This document shows positions 1 to 41,248 of a stretch of DNA of 64,000 nt, one piece after another (the first letter of the stretch is position 1; each line of letters begins with the position of its first letter). Origin of the DNA: Limnochorda sp. L945t. GTDB taxonomy: Bacteria; Bacillota; Limnochordia; Limnochordales; Geochordaceae. The notes beneath the pieces were generated by a model. The model ran no database searches. It saw only the letters and a program-made list of their open reading frames with translations, and was not told the origin of the DNA. The translations under genes and the position numbers were made by a program. The stretch lies in the NCBI RefSeq assembly GCF_035593305.1, contig NZ_CP141615.1, forward strand, positions 2,821,722-2,885,721, in the 5' to 3' direction.

Positions 1-330
1 CCGCACCCGCGCGACCACCTCGCGGGGGCTGAACGGTTTGGTGATGTAGTCGTCGGCTCCGAGCTCCAACCCGACGACCCGGTCGACCTCGTCACCCCGC
101 GCCGTCAGCATGATGATGGGAAGGTCCGACTCGTTGCGGAGGCGCCGGCACACCTCGCGGCCGTCGAGCCCGGGCAGCAGCAGGTCGAGCAGCACGAGGT
201 CCACGCCCCGGGAACGGGCCAGCCCGAGAGCCTCCAGACCGTCGCCGGCGATCACGACCCGGAAGCCTTCGGCCTCCAGGTACGCGCGCAGCACCTGGGT
301 GATCTCGGGCTCGTCGTCGACCACGAGAAT
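1..330 (-). CDS. Response regulator, receiver domain (partial, runs off the left edge)
   Basis: The minus strand encodes the N-terminal receiver domain of a two-component response regulator. An ILVVDDE start with the acidic pocket is followed by a phospho-acceptor Asp in a VLLDLLLPG strand, a Thr-Ala (MLTARG) and the invariant Lys in a TKPFSP turn. The DNA-binding domain lies outside the window, so the output family is not shown; the receiver looks OmpR-like. The frame has no ATG or TTG near its beginning. The first GTG (322-324) would remove the first strand, while an ATG with a good ribosome-binding site (381-383) is in another frame. It is divergent from galE. The cognate kinase is not adjacent. 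Confidence 0.8.
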   Translation of the reverse strand, partial: MLVVDDEPEITQVLRAYLEAEGFRVVIAGDGLEALGLARSRGVDLVLLDLLLPGLDGREVCRRLRNESDLPIIMLTARGDEVDRVVGLELGADDYITKPFSPREVVARVR

Positions 331-1623: not shown

Positions 1624-2790
1624 ATGCAGCGAGTGCGCCTGGGGCTGGCTTTCAACCTGCGTCGCGAAGCGAAGCGCGACGGACCCGAGGACCAGGACGC
1701 GGAGTACGACGCGTGGAGTACGGTCTCGGCTCTGGCCGAGGCCCTTTCTTTTGGCAACACCTGTCAGGTCATCCCGCTCCCGGTGGAGCGGGATTTCGCG
1801 TCGTTGCTCGAGCGCCATCCGGTCGACGCCGTCTTCAACATGGCCGAGGGGTGGGGCGGGAGGAGCCGCGAGCTCCTGGCACCTGCGGTGCTCGAGATGG
1901 CAGGGGTACCCTACACGGGCTCGGACCCGGTCGCGCTGGGCCTGGCCATGGACAAGGCCATCGCCAAGGCCGTCGTGCAAAGCGCCGGCGTCCCGACGGC
2001 CCCCTCCGTCGTCGTGTCCCGCCTGGAGGAGCTCGAGGCGGTCGCCCCGGAGTGTTCCTACCCCGCCTTCGTCAAGCCCGTGGCGGAGGGATCGAGCAAG
2101 GGCGTCCGGGTCGAGTCGCGGGTCGATACGCCCGAGCAGCTCGCCCGCCAGGTGGAGCGGGTGCTGCGCGTCTACCGGCAGCCGGCGCTCGTGGAGGCGT
2201 TCCTGCCCGGAAGAGAGTTCAGCGTGGGGATCCTGGGCAACGACCGGCTGAGATGCCTGCCCGTTCTCGAGGTTCGCCCGCTCGTTCCTCCCGACGATCC
2301 CGGGAGGTTTATTTATTGCTATCACACCAAGAGCCGCAACCTGGAGGCCTTCTTGTGCCCGGCGCCGATCGACCGCGCGCTCGAAGCGCGCCTGGTCGCG
2401 CTCACGCAGACGGTCTTCCGGGCGCTCTCCCTGCGGGACGTGGCGCGGGTCGACTTCCGCCTGGACAGCGCCGGGCAGCCGCGATTCCTGGAGGTCAACC
2501 CGCTGCCGGGGCTTTCTGCCGCCAGCCTGCTGACGGCCCAGGGCGCGGCGGCAGGACTCGACCTGCCGCACCTGGTCGCCTCCATCGTCGCGGCGGCGGC
2601 GTCCCGCTGGGTACAGGAGCCGGGCCTGGGCGGCGACCGGCTGGCCCGCCTGATGGCGCTCCGGCAGGTGGCGTCGGAGATGGCGGCAGCGCCCGTCCCA
2701 CGGCTCCACGACGAGGCGGCGGCTCCCGGAGCGATCGCCGCGAGCGGCCACGGGACGCCGACCCGGAGCCAGGCACCGGTCCAGGGGTAA
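1624..2790 (+). CDS. D-alanine--D-alanine ligase-like ATP-grasp protein
   Basis: This 388-aa protein has the fold order of Ddl ligases: an N-terminal domain (DAVFNMAEG), then ATP-grasp segments with YPAFVKPVAEGSSKG in the ATP-binding loop, ALVEAFLPGREFSVG, and the C-terminal metal site VDFRLD ... FLEVNPLPGL. It should join a carboxylate to an amine using ATP, but the substrate is unknown. It lies 88 bases before a lysine 2,3-aminomutase on the same strand behind a strong promoter, so the substrate may be lysine or beta-lysine rather than D-Ala (inference). The ATG at 1624 gives the normal N-terminus. The last 60 residues are a low-complexity tail absent from classical Ddl. Confidence 0.8.
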   Translation: MQRVRLGLAFNLRREAKRDGPEDQDAEYDAWSTVSALAEALSFGNTCQVIPLPVERDFASLLERHPVDAVFNMAEGWGGRSRELLAPAVLEMAGVPYTGSDPVALGLAMDKAIAKAVVQSAGVPTAPSVVVSRLEELEAVAPECSYPAFVKPVAEGSSKGVRVESRVDTPEQLARQVERVLRVYRQPALVEAFLPGREFSVGILGNDRLRCLPVLEVRPLVPPDDPGRFIYCYHTKSRNLEAFLCPAPIDRALEARLVALTQTVFRALSLRDVARVDFRLDSAGQPRFLEVNPLPGLSAASLLTAQGAAAGLDLPHLVASIVAAAASRWVQEPGLGGDRLARLMALRQVASEMAAAPVPRLHDEAAAPGAIAASGHGTPTRSQAPVQG

Positions 2791-2878
2791 AGGTTTGCCC
2801 GCCGGACGGCCCCCGACGGGCGCCGCCGCGGCGGGAATTACGGCCGGCCACGGCCGGTAGGAGGCGAAACGCACAGGC

Positions 2879-4069
2879 ATGAGCGGTGATGACGAAAAGC
2901 CTGGAGGAACGTCGTGGAAGGATTGGCGTTGGCAGTTCCGTCACCGTGTGCGCACCGTAGAGCAGCTCGCCCAGCATACCCAGGTGACACCGGAGATGGC
3001 CCAGGCCATCGAAGCGTGCTCGCACGAGTTTCGCTTCGCGATCACACCGTACTACCTGAGCCTCATCGACTGGTCCGATCCCGACGACCCGATCCGGCGG
3101 CAGGCGATCCCCAGCGCCGACGAGCTGGAGGACCCGCTCGGAGGCCGCGACCCCCTGCACGAGGAGGATCACTCCCCCGTGAAGGGTCTCGTGCACATGT
3201 ATCCGGACCGGGTCGCGTTCCTGGTCACGGCGGATTGCGCCATCTATTGCCGGCACTGCACCCGCAAGCGGTTCGTCGGCAAGGGCGGCAAGATGACGGA
3301 CGAAGACGTGGACCGGGGCATTGAATATATCCGGCGCACGCCCGCCATCCGGGACGTGTTGATCACCGGAGGCGATCCCCTGGTCGCCTCCGACGCGTGG
3401 CTCGAGGGGCTGATTTCCAGAATCCGGGCGATTCCGCACGTCGAGATCATCCGGATCGGGACCCGGATGCCGGTCACGATGCCCCAGCGCATCACCCAAG
3501 AACTGTGCGACATGCTCCAGAAGTACCATCCCATCTGGGTCAACACGCACTTCAACCATCCGCGCGAGATCACGCCGGAGTCGGCCGCCGCCGTGGATCG
3601 GCTCTTGCGGGCGGGCATTCCTGTCGGCAACCAGACGGTCCTGCTCAAGGGGGTCAACGATGACCCGGCGGTCATGCGGGAGCTGGTACAGGGGCTCTTG
3701 AAGATCCGGGTACGGCCGTACTACCTGTACCAGTGCGACATGCTGCGGGGGACGGCCCACTTCCGCACACCCATCGAGACCGGGCTCGAAATCATCCGGG
3801 CCCTGCAGGGATGGACGACGGGGTTCGCCGTTCCCACGTTCGTCGTGGATTCGCCGATCGGGAAGATCCCGATCATGCCCCAAAATTTGGTCGAACGCGG
3901 CGACGGCTACATCGTGCTGCGCAACTACGAAGGCCGCACCGTGCGGCTTCCCAACCCGTCTCCGTCGCTCCCGGAGCAGGCGGTGGCGGCCGCGGCGGCC
4001 GTCTCGACCAACGGGCGTGCGTCGGCCAACGGGCATTCCAAGGACGGGGCCGGAGCTTCCGGAAAGTAG
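2879..4069 (+). CDS. kamA: Lysine 2,3-aminomutase (radical SAM, PLP-dependent)
   Basis: KamA converts L-lysine to L-beta-lysine using a SAM-derived radical, a [4Fe-4S] cluster and PLP. The 396-aa protein has the cluster motif CxxxCxxC at C120, C124 and C127, followed by TRKRFVG. ITGGDPL, the VNTHFNHPREIT segment and the YLYQCDM region are typical of the family. Its length matches clostridial KamA better than the shorter EF-P-modifying EpmB. A ribosome-binding site (TAGGAGG) precedes the ATG. The acetyltransferase that makes N-acetyl-beta-lysine in other bacteria is not nearby; the upstream ATP-grasp ligase is the likely partner. A clear terminator follows. Confidence 0.93.
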   Translation: MSGDDEKPGGTSWKDWRWQFRHRVRTVEQLAQHTQVTPEMAQAIEACSHEFRFAITPYYLSLIDWSDPDDPIRRQAIPSADELEDPLGGRDPLHEEDHSPVKGLVHMYPDRVAFLVTADCAIYCRHCTRKRFVGKGGKMTDEDVDRGIEYIRRTPAIRDVLITGGDPLVASDAWLEGLISRIRAIPHVEIIRIGTRMPVTMPQRITQELCDMLQKYHPIWVNTHFNHPREITPESAAAVDRLLRAGIPVGNQTVLLKGVNDDPAVMRELVQGLLKIRVRPYYLYQCDMLRGTAHFRTPIETGLEIIRALQGWTTGFAVPTFVVDSPIGKIPIMPQNLVERGDGYIVLRNYEGRTVRLPNPSPSLPEQAVAAAAAVSTNGRASANGHSKDGAGASGK

Positions 4070-36154: not shown

Positions 36155-36338
36155 GCGAGTAGCCCTCCTCCATGGCCAACGGGCCGGAGCTTCCCGAAGC
36201 CGGTAGTGCGGGTGCACCATCCATTGCTATGGCGCGGACCCGGGTCCTGCCACCGGATTCCGGGGCCGGATCCCGGGGCCGGATACGGTGGCGGCGAACG
36301 CGCGGTGCGCCGCCGGGGAGGAGATGGTCCTTTCTGTT

Positions 36339-36357
36339 GCGAATACGACGTATTAGC
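36339..36357. promoter_or_regulatory. 19-bp near-perfect palindrome, likely operator of the copper module
   Basis: GCGAATACGACGTATTAGC is symmetric around a single central A (8 of 9 arm pairs match, with AATACG/CGTATT perfect). It sits 30 bases before the regulator start, between it and the divergent cysH. It was not seen elsewhere by eye. Confidence 0.6.
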
Positions 36358-36386
36358 ACATCACCGCACGGACCCGGGGAGAAGGC

Positions 36387-36956
36387 ATGCTGGGGCCCGA
36401 ACGACATCGGCGCATCCTCGAGCACCTACGCCAGCACGGCTCCGCCACAGTACAGGCGCTGTGCCGGATGCTGGGCGTCTCGCGCATGACGGTCCAGCGG
36501 GATCTGGCCGCCCTCGCCCGGCGCGGCGTGCTGGTCCGCGTGCGGGGTGGGGCCGTCCGGGCAGACGTCCCACCCGCGGGCGCACCCGATCGCTGTGAGA
36601 TCTGCGGGGTGCCCGTTCGCGTACGGGATGCGTTCGTCGTCGTCGACGATAGCGGCAGGCGCCATATGGCATGTTGCCCCCATTGCGGAGTGCTGCTGGC
36701 CCGGATGGTGGCCCCTGCCACCGCCCTGGCGGCCGATTTCCTGACCGGTCGCGTCCTGGAGGCCAGGAGTGCCACGTACGTGGTGGACTCCGAGGTCCAT
36801 ACCTGCTGCTCTCCGTCCGTACTGGCCTTCGCCGGGGCCGACGAGGCCTCCCGGTTTCAGGGCGCGTTCGGCGGGAAGCTGGTCCGGTGGGCCGGCCTCT
36901 CGCGCGAGCTCACCCACCCTCGTGCGTTGCCCGGCCCGTCCCGTAACGTCTCGTAA
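36387..36956 (+). CDS. DeoR-type HTH fused to a cysteine-rich NosL-like domain, putative copper regulator
   Basis: The N-terminus (about 5-57) is a DeoR winged helix (RHRRILEHLRQHGSATVQAL, CRMLGVSRMTVQRDLAALA). It is followed not by a sugar-phosphate sensor but by a NosL-like domain (about 68-170): CEIC at C70/C73, a HMACCPHC cluster at H93-C100, and SATYVVDSEVHTCC at C140/C141. FAGADEASRFQGAFGGKLVRW then matches the NosL C-terminal strand and helix. NosL binds Cu(I). The two genes directly downstream encode copper chaperones, so it probably senses copper and acts on the palindrome at 36339-36357 (inference). GGAGAAGG precedes the ATG. The protein is 189 aa. Confidence 0.75.
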   Translation: MLGPERHRRILEHLRQHGSATVQALCRMLGVSRMTVQRDLAALARRGVLVRVRGGAVRADVPPAGAPDRCEICGVPVRVRDAFVVVDDSGRRHMACCPHCGVLLARMVAPATALAADFLTGRVLEARSATYVVDSEVHTCCSPSVLAFAGADEASRFQGAFGGKLVRWAGLSRELTHPRALPGPSRNVS

Positions 36957-36985
36957 GAGGCACAAGGAAGGGGGGCAAACTCACC

Positions 36986-37603
36986 ATGCAAAGGCTCCGC
37001 ACGTCCCGGCGGATCTGGATCCTGGTAGCCCTCGTCGTGATCGCGGGCGCCGCGTCGGCCGTCGGATGGTCCCTGACCCGCCCGAGGGCGCCGGGTTTCC
37101 GGGGGGCCGCGGTCAATCCCCCGTACCCCGCCCCCGACTTCACCCTGGTCGACCAGAGGGGGGAGCCTTTTCGGTTCTCGTCCTTGCGCGGCAAAGTGGT
37201 CGCCCTGTACTTCGGGTACACCTTCTGCCCGGACGCCTGCCCCGGCACGCTCCTCAACTTCCGCCAGGCTCGCCAGCTGCTGGGCAACCAGGCCGACCGG
37301 GTGCAGTTCGTCTTCGTGAGCGTCGATCCGGATCGGGACTCGCCCGAGAGGATCCGGGAGTACCTGTCCAACTTCGACCCGAGCTTCCTGGGGCTCACCG
37401 GTAAGCCGGCCCAGGTGACGGCCGTGCTCAGGCAGTACGGGGTGGTGGCGGAGAAAGTCTACGTCGAGGGCTCCAGCGCCGGGTATCTCATGAATCACAC
37501 CGCCTCGGTCTATCTCATCGACCCCAACGGGATGATGCGGGTCATGGTCTTCTACGGGCAGAGAGCGGAAGACCTGGCCCACGACATCCGGCAACTCCTG
37601 TAA
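36986..37603 (+). CDS. Sco1/SenC-family copper chaperone
   Basis: Sco proteins deliver copper to the CuA site of cytochrome oxidase or act as thiol reductases. The 205-aa protein has one N-terminal membrane anchor (about 10-29) and a thioredoxin-like domain facing outside. It carries the metal motif CPDACP (C81 and C85) and the distant H171 in NHTASVYLID, the complete Cu ligand set. It is 29 bases after the regulator and 21 bases before the PCuAC gene. No oxidase genes are in the window. Confidence 0.93.
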   Translation: MQRLRTSRRIWILVALVVIAGAASAVGWSLTRPRAPGFRGAAVNPPYPAPDFTLVDQRGEPFRFSSLRGKVVALYFGYTFCPDACPGTLLNFRQARQLLGNQADRVQFVFVSVDPDRDSPERIREYLSNFDPSFLGLTGKPAQVTAVLRQYGVVAEKVYVEGSSAGYLMNHTASVYLIDPNGMMRVMVFYGQRAEDLAHDIRQLL

Positions 37604-37624
37604 AGGGAAGGGACGGGGTACGGT

Positions 37625-38191
37625 ATGGCAGAGCGGTTGCAGAGCCGGTTGTTGGGGAGGCGGGGCGAGCTGCGGCGCCCGGCCGGCGCGCCACTCGTGG
37701 CCGGCGCCGCGCTGGTGGCCGCCGCATTCGTGTGGGCGTTTTCGACGGGCCTCGCCGGGGCCGCGGCTCCGGCAAAGGCGGCCGGCGCGGCCCAAGCGCC
37801 ACCCCAGGGCATCCGGGTGGAGGACGTCTGGGCCAGGCCGGCAAAGGCCATGGGAGGCCATGGAGATGCCTCCATGGGGATGACCGGCGCCATTTTCCTC
37901 ACGTTGGTCAACGACAGCGCGTCCACGCGCTACCTGGTGGCGGTGAAGTCCGACGTGGCCGGCGCGGTGGAGCTCCATGAGACCCGGATCGTCGACAACG
38001 TCATGAAGATGCAGCCGGTGGCCCGCATCGAGGTACCGGCCAAGGGGCGGGCCCAGCTCAAGCCTGGCGGGTACCACATCATGCTGCTCGGGCTGCGCCG
38101 CACCCTGGCAGAGGGCGACCGCTTCCGGGCCACCCTGGTCTTCGACGACGGCTCCGAGCTGGCGGTCGACGTACCGGTCGAGATGCGCTGA
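37625..38191 (+). CDS. PCu(A)C-type periplasmic copper chaperone
   Basis: PCuAC proteins hold Cu(I) outside the membrane and pass it to Sco or CuA. The 188-aa protein has a membrane anchor or signal segment (about 22-46) and the exact family motif HX10MX21HXM at H118, M129, H151 and M153. An insertion before the core (AMGGHGDASMGM, about 75-86) adds His and Met residues that may bind a second metal. It ends the three-gene copper operon, before a strong hairpin. Confidence 0.93.
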   Translation: MAERLQSRLLGRRGELRRPAGAPLVAGAALVAAAFVWAFSTGLAGAAAPAKAAGAAQAPPQGIRVEDVWARPAKAMGGHGDASMGMTGAIFLTLVNDSASTRYLVAVKSDVAGAVELHETRIVDNVMKMQPVARIEVPAKGRAQLKPGGYHIMLLGLRRTLAEGDRFRATLVFDDGSELAVDVPVEMR

Positions 38192-38255
38192 AGCGGCCGC
38201 ACGCCCCCCCCTCACCCGGGCACGGGTCGCGGGGCGGCCGGTGGCCGAGAACGTC

Positions 38256-38286
38256 CCCTGAGCGGCCACGCAGCGGCCGCTCAGGG
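38256..38286. terminator. Bidirectional terminator hairpin between the copper operon and sodC
   Basis: A perfect 12-bp stem, CCCTGAGCGGCC (38256-38267) with GGCCGCTCAGGG (38275-38286), and a 7-base loop. It contains the sodC stop codon and separates convergent genes. Confidence 0.65.
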
Positions 38287-38874
38287 CCTCTGGATGACGC
38301 CACAAGCGAGGCGCTTGCCGGAGGCTCCTGCCGGCTGGGTACGGTAGTCGTCCGGGTTTTCGTGGATGATGACCGCGCGCCCGAGGATGGCCGCGACACG
38401 AAGGCGTGACGTGAAGAAAGTCATGGACGCCCGGCCGGCGTTGGAGAAGAGCACCGGGAAGTCACCGGCATGGTTGCCGTGGGGCTGGCCGCTGTCGTCG
38501 AAATGCCCCCCTGCGGCCAGGAACGGATCGGTCGCGTCGCCCACCGTGCAGTCACCCTTCTCGTGGATGTGGAACCCGTGGGGCCCGATGGGCGCCCTCC
38601 CCGGCGTCGCCGGGGCGTAGGGCGGCAACCCCTCGACCTCCACGGTCACCCGAACGCCCCCTTGGGTCTCCTGGAAACGGATCGTTCCGGAGATCTCAGG
38701 CGCCAGCGGGCCCCCGCGCACGTACGCCACGGCCTCCGGCGGTTTGCCGATGTTGCGCAGCACCCTCGCCGCGGCCAGGAGGGCCACGAGCGCCAGGACC
38801 AGCGCCGCCACCACGATCCGGTCTCGCCGGCCGGATGGGTCGCTCGCCCGCCTGCTGCCCACCAGGGGCACCAC
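38281..38874 (-). CDS. sodC: Copper/zinc superoxide dismutase
   Basis: SodC detoxifies superoxide outside the cytoplasm. The 197-aa protein has an N-terminal membrane anchor (about 19-37) and a complete Cu/Zn site: H102 and H104 (GFHIHEKGDC), H124 (GGHF), H132, H135 and D138 (zinc loop) and H171 (VIIHENPDDY). The disulfide pair is C109/C191 and the guiding Arg is in GKRLAC. It converges with the copper chaperone operon, which may load it. Cu/Zn SOD is uncommon in spore-formers, though Bacillus YojM is a relative. Confidence 0.95.
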   Translation of the reverse strand: MVPLVGSRRASDPSGRRDRIVVAALVLALVALLAAARVLRNIGKPPEAVAYVRGGPLAPEISGTIRFQETQGGVRVTVEVEGLPPYAPATPGRAPIGPHGFHIHEKGDCTVGDATDPFLAAGGHFDDSGQPHGNHAGDFPVLFSNAGRASMTFFTSRLRVAAILGRAVIIHENPDDYRTQPAGASGKRLACGVIQRP

Positions 38875-38986
38875 CCCCGGGGAAACGATATGGGGGCAAT
38901 GGCGGCGCCATCACCGACTACGGACGATTACGGCGCGTCCACCGCGCTCTGTCCCGTTGGTAGGCAGATCGCTTCGTAGGACGAGG

Positions 38987-41248
38987 CTATCCTTGCTCGT
39001 CCTCGGCCTTCCCCAGGTAGCGATCGAACCAGTCGACGATCCGGTCTAGGCGAAAGACCCGGTGCCACGGCTTACCGCCGCGGCTCAGGCCGTGGCTTTC
39101 CCCGGCGAAGCGCACGAACTCCACCGGAACCTTGCGCCACTTGAGCGCCGTGTAGAGCTGCTCCGCCTGTTCGATGGGACAGCGCAGGTCCATCTCTGAG
39201 TGGAGAATCAGGGTCGGCGTGTGGATCTGGCCGGCGTAGTGGATGGGCGACATCGACAGGTAGCGGGGAGCGTCGGCCCACGGGGGCTGGCGCAGGTCGT
39301 AAAGGTCGAAGACGCCGATATCGCTCGTGCCGAAGAAACTGTGCTCGTTGGTCACACTGCGCATGGTCACGGCCGCCTTGAAGCGGTCGGTGTGGCCGAT
39401 GATCCAGTTGGTCATGTAGCCTCCGTAGCTGCCGCCCGCCACGCCCAACCGCTCGGGGTCGATGAAGTCGAACCGCTCCAGCGCGGCGTCGACCAGGGCC
39501 ATGACGTCGCGGTAATCGAGATGGCCCCAGTCCCCCCGGATGGCCGCGCAGAACGCCTGCCCGTATCCCTGGCTGCCCCGCGGGTTGGTGTAGATGACGC
39601 CGTACCCCCGGGCGGCGAGCAACTGGAACTCGAAGAAGAAGGCGTGGGCGTACATGGCCATGGGCCCGCCGTGAATCTCGAGGACGACCGGGTAGCGCCG
39701 CCCCGGCCGGGCCCCTACGGGCCGGATGGCCCACCCGTCGAGGCGCAGCCCGCCGGACTCGAACGCGAAGGGCTCCGGCTCCGACAGCTCCACCTCCCCG
39801 AGGAGCGCCCCGTTGGCGTGGGAAAGCTGGCGCAAGCCCGCGAGGCTCCTGTACGGAGGCCCGTCCAGGCGACCGGCCCATACCTCTCCCGGTCGCAGCG
39901 GGTCGGTCATGACCACGGCCACCTGCCCCGAGCGGGAGCGAACGCTCACTGCCTGGATGACCTGGCGCCCCTCGAGCAGGGGTGTGATGGGCGCGGCCGG
40001 CGCAGGCCCGGCCGTCGTTTCGCCGGGCAGCCCGAACCAGAGCAGGTCCACCGAGCCCCTGCGGCTCACCTGGGCGAACAGCCCCGACCCGTCGGCAGCC
40101 CACACCACGCCGTCGCCGCCGTCCCCGGCCACGTCGGTCAGGGCCTGGTTGCCGAGACAAAGGTCGGCCGCGGCGGTGAGGGAGATCGGAGGGCGCTCGT
40201 CGCGGGCCAGGTCGAGCAGGTAGAGGTGATGGTTGCTGTACTGGTCGTACTCCAGGTCGAAGGCCGTGAAGGCGAGATGCCTGCCGTCGGGCGAGGCCAT
40301 GACGTCCGTCACCCGGAGCTCGGACCGGGTCAGCTTCTCCAGGCCCGGGCCGGTTTCAGGTGGCGCGCCTCGCGCCGGCTCTTGGGGGGCAGGGAGGAGG
40401 TAGACGTCGCTCCAACGCTGGTAGTCTGCATCGGGGTCGGGATTGGCGACGATGGCAAGGCGCGATCCGTCGGCCAGCCAGTCGCATGCCCGGACGTCCC
40501 ACTCTCCTGCCGTGAGCTGCACCGGGTCCGGGATGGAGGCCGGGCCTGCGGGCACGCTCGCACCGTCAGCCTGCGCGGACCGGCCGCCCACCTCCTCCCC
40601 TGCCACTTCGTCCAGGAAGACGAGGAATAGGTGGCGCCGCTTGCGGCCGAAGAAGCCCACCCCGTCTTCCTTGTACAGCAGCCGGGTGATGACCTGCACG
40701 TCCCGGTTAAACCGGCGGTACGGCTCCTTCTCGTCGGGGTCCTCGTCTCCCAGCCGCTCGAGCCCCTTTTCGGTGTCGAGCACGGCCACGAACGCGATGC
40801 GCCGGCCGTCGGGCGCCCAGACGGGCACGCCCGCCCCGTGCTTGAGCCGGGTCAGGGGACGGGCCTCGCCCCCATCGGCCGGCATCACGAAGAGTTGGAA
40901 GGGCGCCGTCTCCTGCCCCCGAGACGCTGCGCTGCCTCCGGCCCTGCTCGCCTCGGGCGGCACCAGGGGCCTGTCCGACAAGAAGGCCAGCCACCGGCCG
41001 TCCGGCGACCAGCGAGGCGCCTTGTCCTGGCCCGGCCCCGCGGTGAAGGCCCGTGCCGGCCCGGAGCCATCGGACGGGGCCACCATGATCCGGGAGCGAT
41101 ACTGGTCGGCCTCCGGGTCGATCCAGCGCTCGACCCATGCGACGTTGCGCCCGTCTGGCGACAGCTGCACGTCGCCCACGAAGCGCATCCGCAGCAGATC
41201 CCGCGACTCGAGGCGCCGCTTGCGCGGCGCAGGGCCCGATGTCTCCAT
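38987..41248 (-). CDS. S9-family prolyl oligopeptidase / acylaminoacyl-peptidase
   Basis: The 753-aa enzyme has a seven-bladed beta-propeller (about 25-480, with repeated SPDGR motifs: LSPDGRNVAWV, WSPDGRWLAFLS, WAPDGRRIAFV, ASPDGRHLAFT) and a C-terminal alpha/beta hydrolase. The nucleophile Ser lies in GVAGGSYGGYMTNW, the Asp in SEMDLRCPIEQAEQ and the His in GESHGLSRGG. There is no signal peptide, so it degrades oligopeptides in the cytoplasm. The start could be ATG 41248 or GTG 41287. Confidence 0.93.
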   Translation of the reverse strand: METSGPAPRKRRLESRDLLRMRFVGDVQLSPDGRNVAWVERWIDPEADQYRSRIMVAPSDGSGPARAFTAGPGQDKAPRWSPDGRWLAFLSDRPLVPPEASRAGGSAASRGQETAPFQLFVMPADGGEARPLTRLKHGAGVPVWAPDGRRIAFVAVLDTEKGLERLGDEDPDEKEPYRRFNRDVQVITRLLYKEDGVGFFGRKRRHLFLVFLDEVAGEEVGGRSAQADGASVPAGPASIPDPVQLTAGEWDVRACDWLADGSRLAIVANPDPDADYQRWSDVYLLPAPQEPARGAPPETGPGLEKLTRSELRVTDVMASPDGRHLAFTAFDLEYDQYSNHHLYLLDLARDERPPISLTAAADLCLGNQALTDVAGDGGDGVVWAADGSGLFAQVSRRGSVDLLWFGLPGETTAGPAPAAPITPLLEGRQVIQAVSVRSRSGQVAVVMTDPLRPGEVWAGRLDGPPYRSLAGLRQLSHANGALLGEVELSEPEPFAFESGGLRLDGWAIRPVGARPGRRYPVVLEIHGGPMAMYAHAFFFEFQLLAARGYGVIYTNPRGSQGYGQAFCAAIRGDWGHLDYRDVMALVDAALERFDFIDPERLGVAGGSYGGYMTNWIIGHTDRFKAAVTMRSVTNEHSFFGTSDIGVFDLYDLRQPPWADAPRYLSMSPIHYAGQIHTPTLILHSEMDLRCPIEQAEQLYTALKWRKVPVEFVRFAGESHGLSRGGKPWHRVFRLDRIVDWFDRYLGKAEDEQG

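Follow-up and report, generated by a model that had tools for sequence, protein, structure and literature searches.

A distant YcnK-family regulator with a NosL-fold domain encoded beside Sco and PCuAC copper chaperone genes in Limnochorda

Introduction

Which signal is read by a regulator that carries a DeoR-type winged helix joined to a domain resembling NosL, the chaperone of nitrous oxide reductase, and does such a protein represent a new class of copper sensor? This question is raised by a gene in a 64,000-nucleotide stretch of DNA from Limnochorda sp. L945t (contig NZ_CP141615.1), denoted here as the window, for which an earlier note had proposed such a class. Published work on Bacillus subtilis describes copper-dependent repression of ycnKJI by YcnK (PMC8424229, PMC12154828, PMC13344008), which is annotated as a copper-responsive repressor of the DeoR family (PMC10991351). 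YcnK binds upstream of its own operon via a helix-turn-helix (PMC8424229), and this operon is up-regulated under copper starvation and down-regulated under copper-replete conditions (PMC12154828, PMC8424229). The following sections describe the architecture of the window protein, its relation to YcnK, its relatives in other phyla and the mode of action that these data suggest.

Architecture of the Regulator and Its Gene Neighborhood

The regulator gene of the earlier note was recovered as a 189-codon frame with an ATG start (Table 1). Its product has no signal peptide; the N-terminus is formed by the winged helix, matched by Pfam HTH_DeoR at residues 6-59 (E 3.2e-15). The Pfam family NosL (PF05573) is matched at residues 121-175 (E 7.7e-9, 36.4 bits vs a cut-off of 24) and thus covers just the last 55 residues of the second half. 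A DeoRC domain, the C-terminal sugar-phosphate sensor of classical DeoR/GlpR regulators, does not occur among the Pfam matches listed, and NosL is found in its place, as the earlier note had it. Judged by its domains, the protein would fall outside the classical sugar-phosphate group.

Table 1. Features of the regulator locus, the encoded protein and the paralogue. Positions refer to the window unless amino acid (aa) numbering or a contig (C1) or locus (L036) prefix is given.
Feature	Position	Strand	Remarks
YcnK-like regulator gene	36387-36956	+	ATG at 36387, stop codon ends 36956; 189 aa
DeoR-type winged helix of the regulator	aa 6-59		Followed by a linker
NosL-fold sensor domain of the regulator	aa ~68-176		Follows the linker
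Sco/SenC copper chaperone	36986-37603	+	205 aa; CxxxC (FCPDAC); Pfam SCO1-SenC E 4.2e-45; 29 bp downstream of regulator
PCu(A)C copper chaperone	37625-38191	+	188 aa; Pfam PCuAC E 2e-33; 21 bp downstream of sco
Cu/Zn superoxide dismutase (SOD)	38281-38874	-	197 aa; convergent; Pfam Sod_Cu E 5e-34
Candidate operator, imperfect palindrome TGCgAATACGaCGTATTaGCA	36338-36358	no strand	9/10 pairs; 28 bp before start codon
Second wHTH-NosL regulator, own genome	C1:765126-765737 (L036:1435-2058)	-	All seven Cys

The extent of the NosL-like half was delimited by profile and structure comparison. Profile comparison of the sensor half with NosL sequences of the same order gave a probability of 95.8% (E 7.5e-9) over 118 aligned columns, with C70/C73 placed on the CxxC and C96/C100 on the CxxxC pair of NosL. 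An AlphaFold2 model of the window protein (16 sequences in the alignment, mean pLDDT 84.5) was used for a Foldseek search, in which the best PDB match was NosL 7og7 (E 7.7e-6, TM 0.69 on the target). Residues 54-175 of the model superpose on this structure with Z 14.6 and an rmsd of 2.4 Å over 119 residues. Residues 65-170, for which the earlier note had suggested a comparison with NosL, are thus assigned to NosL, and not to an unrelated fold, by both profile and predicted structure. Profile, structure prediction and fold search thus agree on the NosL domain, which is fused to the DeoR winged helix. The seven Cys residues named in the earlier note (C70, C73, C96, C97, C100, C140, and C141) lie at exactly these positions, and H99 lies among them in the sensor domain; an eighth Cys, C26, is located in the winged helix and is not conserved in relatives.

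The fold and the CxxC and CxxxC pairs are shared with NosL. Unlike the window protein, NosL is exported as a lipoprotein and has no DNA-binding domain, and it lacks C140-C141 of the sensor; the window protein, in turn, does not belong to the exported or membrane-anchored proteins that assist nitrous oxide reductase. A design analogous to that of the window protein is known from archaeal HTH-TRASH metal regulators (CopT/CopR type), in which a winged helix is joined to a treble-clef metal-sensing domain. These proteins differ in having a single TRASH module and another HTH class. Two ordinary NosL genes are present elsewhere in the Limnochorda genome, adjoining nos-type (ABC) transporter genes. 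One of them (C1:108962-109288, L032) has a TAG codon in frame within the region matching NosL, which may reflect a pseudogene, a sequencing error or readthrough.

The Sco and PCuAC genes follow the regulator directly on the same strand, and the SOD gene is convergent, in accordance with the earlier description. Regulator, sco and the PCuAC gene probably form one operon. Upstream of the regulator, in divergent orientation, genes for PAPS reductase and ATP sulfurylase are found. The genome also encodes CuA-type oxidase subunits, a second Sco and two CsoR-family proteins, a gene set with which a separate sensor for copper acquisition or delivery would fit. The second regulator of the same type in this genome (207-aa frame, 43-45% identity to the window protein) lies in the order YtkA-like, regulator, CopC, CopD, so that each of the three domains found in Bacillus YcnJ has a gene of its own here.

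Relationship to YcnK

One Bacillus locus contains a regulator gene followed by genes for a CopC-CopD-YtkA fusion (YcnJ) and a DUF1775 protein (YcnI), the published ycnKJI order (PMC12154828). The window protein aligns with this regulator over residues 1-179 (29% identity, E 1e-27), the sensor-half profile retrieves it at E 2e-41, and it harbors all seven Cys residues and H99 of the window protein. Full-length homology to YcnK, a published copper-responsive repressor, makes a new sensor class untenable, and this part of the earlier proposal has to be given up. The C-terminal half of YcnK had reportedly been called NosL-like already in the primary papers of 2009 and 2012.

YcnK (CutR) of B. subtilis likewise consists of a DeoR-type winged helix and a NosL-like C-terminal half with about 190 aa in total, and its gene opens its own copper operon; the seven Cys residues and an ACCxHC motif are common to the window protein and the Bacillus ycnKJI regulator. 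The two differ in the presumed target, which is sco-PCuAC in the window vs YcnJ-YcnI, and in the C70-xx-C73 linker, which is shorter than in YcnK. The window protein also lacks the C-terminal Cys/His tail found in many Bacillaceae members. With its DeoR winged helix, the full-length homology of its sensor, the CxxC/CCxHC/CC set and an operon context of copper import or delivery, the window protein is, as judged from sequence, a YcnK-family protein, though a distant one. New here are the spread of this family beyond Bacilli, the Sco/PCuAC context and a Cys/His set separating the sensor from NosL, together with a promoter element common to Bacillaceae and, speculatively, a kinship with MerB.

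Relatives and the Conserved Cys/His Set

A two-sequence profile run against ~85,000 species genomes yielded 15 loci: one in Limnochordaceae Bu05 (96% identical), three in Chloroflexota, one in Desulfuromonadaceae and ten in Bacillaceae; one further relative was found in a Bacillus outside this set. The range of this copper regulator, so far described chiefly in Bacillus, thereby extends to Limnochordia, Chloroflexota and Desulfuromonadia. The aligned relatives, drawn from Limnochordaceae, Chloroflexota, a desulfuromonad and Bacillaceae, are as low as 27% identical to the window protein, and the seven Cys residues and H99 are invariant in 18/18 sequences, more than chance would give at such distances. 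The winged-helix residues R6, S32, M34, T35, R38 and D39 are invariant as well. Pfam recognizes both HTH_DeoR and NosL in 17 of the 18 relatives and the HTH in the remaining one. According to the alignment and the profile comparison, C97, H99, C140 and C141 are invariant in the sensor and absent from NosL and therefore mark the sensor. With this alignment, the residues worth mutating as likely copper ligands are reduced to eight.

In the order of the ycnKJI Bacillus, the sensor half is present in 24/120 genomes, with 15 strong matches; the weak ones may represent ordinary NosL-like proteins. It occurs in one genome of a wider phylum sample (n = 298). Among 59 relatives within Limnochordia, the wHTH-NosL fusion was found nowhere apart from the Bu05 locus. 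Horizontal transfer from Chloroflexota was considered, and no claim is made, since 9 of the 15 inner branches of the tree are left open; branches are long.

The neighborhoods of these relatives mostly encode import and oxidase-loading functions. A Sco gene follows the regulator in three further loci, from Virgibacillus/Cerasibacillus (L048, L050, and L052). Genes for YtkA-like lipoproteins lie beside the regulator in most Bacillaceae loci, and a CtaG gene is divergent from it in four loci. Individual Bacillaceae loci harbor CopC-CopD-YtkA and YcnI beside the regulator (L051), a CopA-type ATPase nearby (L046) or an HMA (CopZ-like) protein (L043). Clear copper neighbors were not found among the genes scanned on the Chloroflexota contigs. 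Linkage to copper genes extends across phyla, and the family is not tied to one particular operon but accompanies genes for copper import and oxidase loading.

In the desulfuromonad, genes for a regulator of the same type and a divergent OprC-like TonB receptor with ExbD lie near each other (L045:6010-6645 and 1822-3924). Among solved structures, the copper porin OprC is the best relative of this receptor (E 2.5e-37), which suggests outer-membrane copper import under YcnK-like control.

Proposed Mode of Action and Alternative Signals

The DeoR-type helix, the NosL fold, the conserved Cys/His residues and the neighboring copper genes together make a copper-sensing regulator the best reading, and in this respect the earlier proposal stands. 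More specifically, the window protein is probably a YcnK-type copper-responsive repressor that keeps the operon it shares with sco and PCuAC silent under copper sufficiency, a reading given a probability of roughly 85%. Repression, copper as the effector and the direction of the response would be as in YcnK. The N-terminal winged helix would bind an operator at its own promoter, putatively the palindrome of Table 1, and the C-terminal NosL-fold domain would bind cytosolic copper, probably Cu(I), via the conserved Cys/His set, whose Cys residues are the putative ligands. As long as copper is sufficient, the regulator-sco-PCuAC operon, the presumed target, would remain repressed; once copper becomes scarce, repression would lift, and the chaperones loading the CuA oxidase would be made.

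The signal could also be copper excess, with Cu(I) releasing the protein from DNA and sco, PCuAC, and perhaps SOD being induced under copper stress. Such a response would agree with the convergent Cu/Zn SOD gene, with genes for CopA and CopZ-like proteins in the vicinity of some Bacillaceae relatives and with the wording of one paper, in which cytosolic Cu+ is 'proposed to antagonize' YcnK (PMC13344008). It is made unlikely by the delivery and import functions of the Sco, CtaG, YtkA, CopC-CopD, and OprC-like neighbors, by the lowering of uptake genes by YcnK under copper excess (PMC10991351, PMC12154828), and by the two CsoR genes for efflux control in the genome itself.

If the NosL-like half held zinc for structural reasons or sensed redox state through its thiols, the signal would be zinc, disulfide stress or another stimulus, and not copper. 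CxxC and CxxxC pairs are of a kind that occurs in treble-clef/TRASH zinc sites, the presumed ancestors of the NosL/MerB fold, which is held to derive from duplicated TRASH modules (PMC4999995), and disulfides are possible among seven Cys residues. This explanation is quite improbable in view of the copper-gene linkage in five independent contexts, of the invariance of C97, H99, C140, and C141 in addition to the Cys pairs in common with NosL, and of the copper specificity of YcnK according to literature cited by PMC10991351.

Possible Relationship to MerB

Structures of the organomercurial lyase MerB were the next fold matches right after NosL in the Foldseek search. As in the YcnK-type regulators, a winged helix precedes a NosL/MerB-fold domain in MerB, and its pair C159-C160 falls at a place equivalent to C140-C141 in a profile alignment, itself a weak match; unlike the regulators, MerB is an enzyme with catalytic C96/D99/C159. 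The window family matches the MerB profile with a probability of 3.8-6.6%, no better than chance for two short profiles, and the sequence similarity is too weak to prove kinship beyond the shared fold. A forced whole-length profile comparison produced no convincing alignment, and PF03243 (MerB) is not among the best 25 of 40 Pfam matches for the window protein. A search for MerB in 120 Bacilli genomes returned no match, but neither did its control. That the window protein is itself a relative of MerB-like organomercury lyases and not a regulator, as the fold matches and the common order of domains might imply, has practically no chance of being correct: the recognition helix VSxMTxxRDL is kept with its five invariant residues (S32, M34, T35, R38, and D39) within a strong HTH_DeoR match, a Cys or His takes the place of the catalytic Asp99, mer genes are absent nearby, and there is next to no sequence similarity to MerB (probability 3.8%).

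With the window protein retained as a YcnK-type regulator, a speculative scenario with a small but not negligible chance is that no living proteins are more closely related to MerB than these regulators. The copper-sensing site C97, C100, and C140-C141 would then have become the mercury site C96, D99, and C159-C160 of MerB, and the winged helix would have been kept. No suitable outgroup for MerB exists according to a survey of mer genes (PMC8261052); if the scenario held true, the wHTH-NosL family would supply the one missing from the MerB phylogeny, and a starting point would be given for the origin of an enzyme that detoxifies methylmercury.

Promoter and Operator Candidates

With up to 1 mismatch allowed, the genome contains no second copy of the core of the palindrome ahead of the window regulator. 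An equally good palindrome was reached in 24/400 shuffles of the region, and the site is therefore only a candidate operator. It is not shared with the promoter of the paralogue, and a common operator of the regulator, SOD and paralogue promoters was rejected, with best matches at shuffle level. The upstream regions of the regulator and SOD genes share no element above shuffled controls, and a scan of positions 36200-39000 for sigma-70 promoters and terminators found none.

Ten Bacillaceae upstream regions share the element TGTTAnAG-TTTGTT-nnAA-TTTGTTA, which was not found upstream of the window regulator. Its Gibbs score of 205, vs 126-132 in shuffled controls, is inflated by the relatedness of the sequences, but the element is common to two Lentibacillus, several Virgibacillus and two Paucisalibacillus sequences. 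It lies about 50-70 bases before the start codon of the regulator, mostly 54-66 (L043-L053). The direct repeats within this element are spaced by roughly 10 bp.
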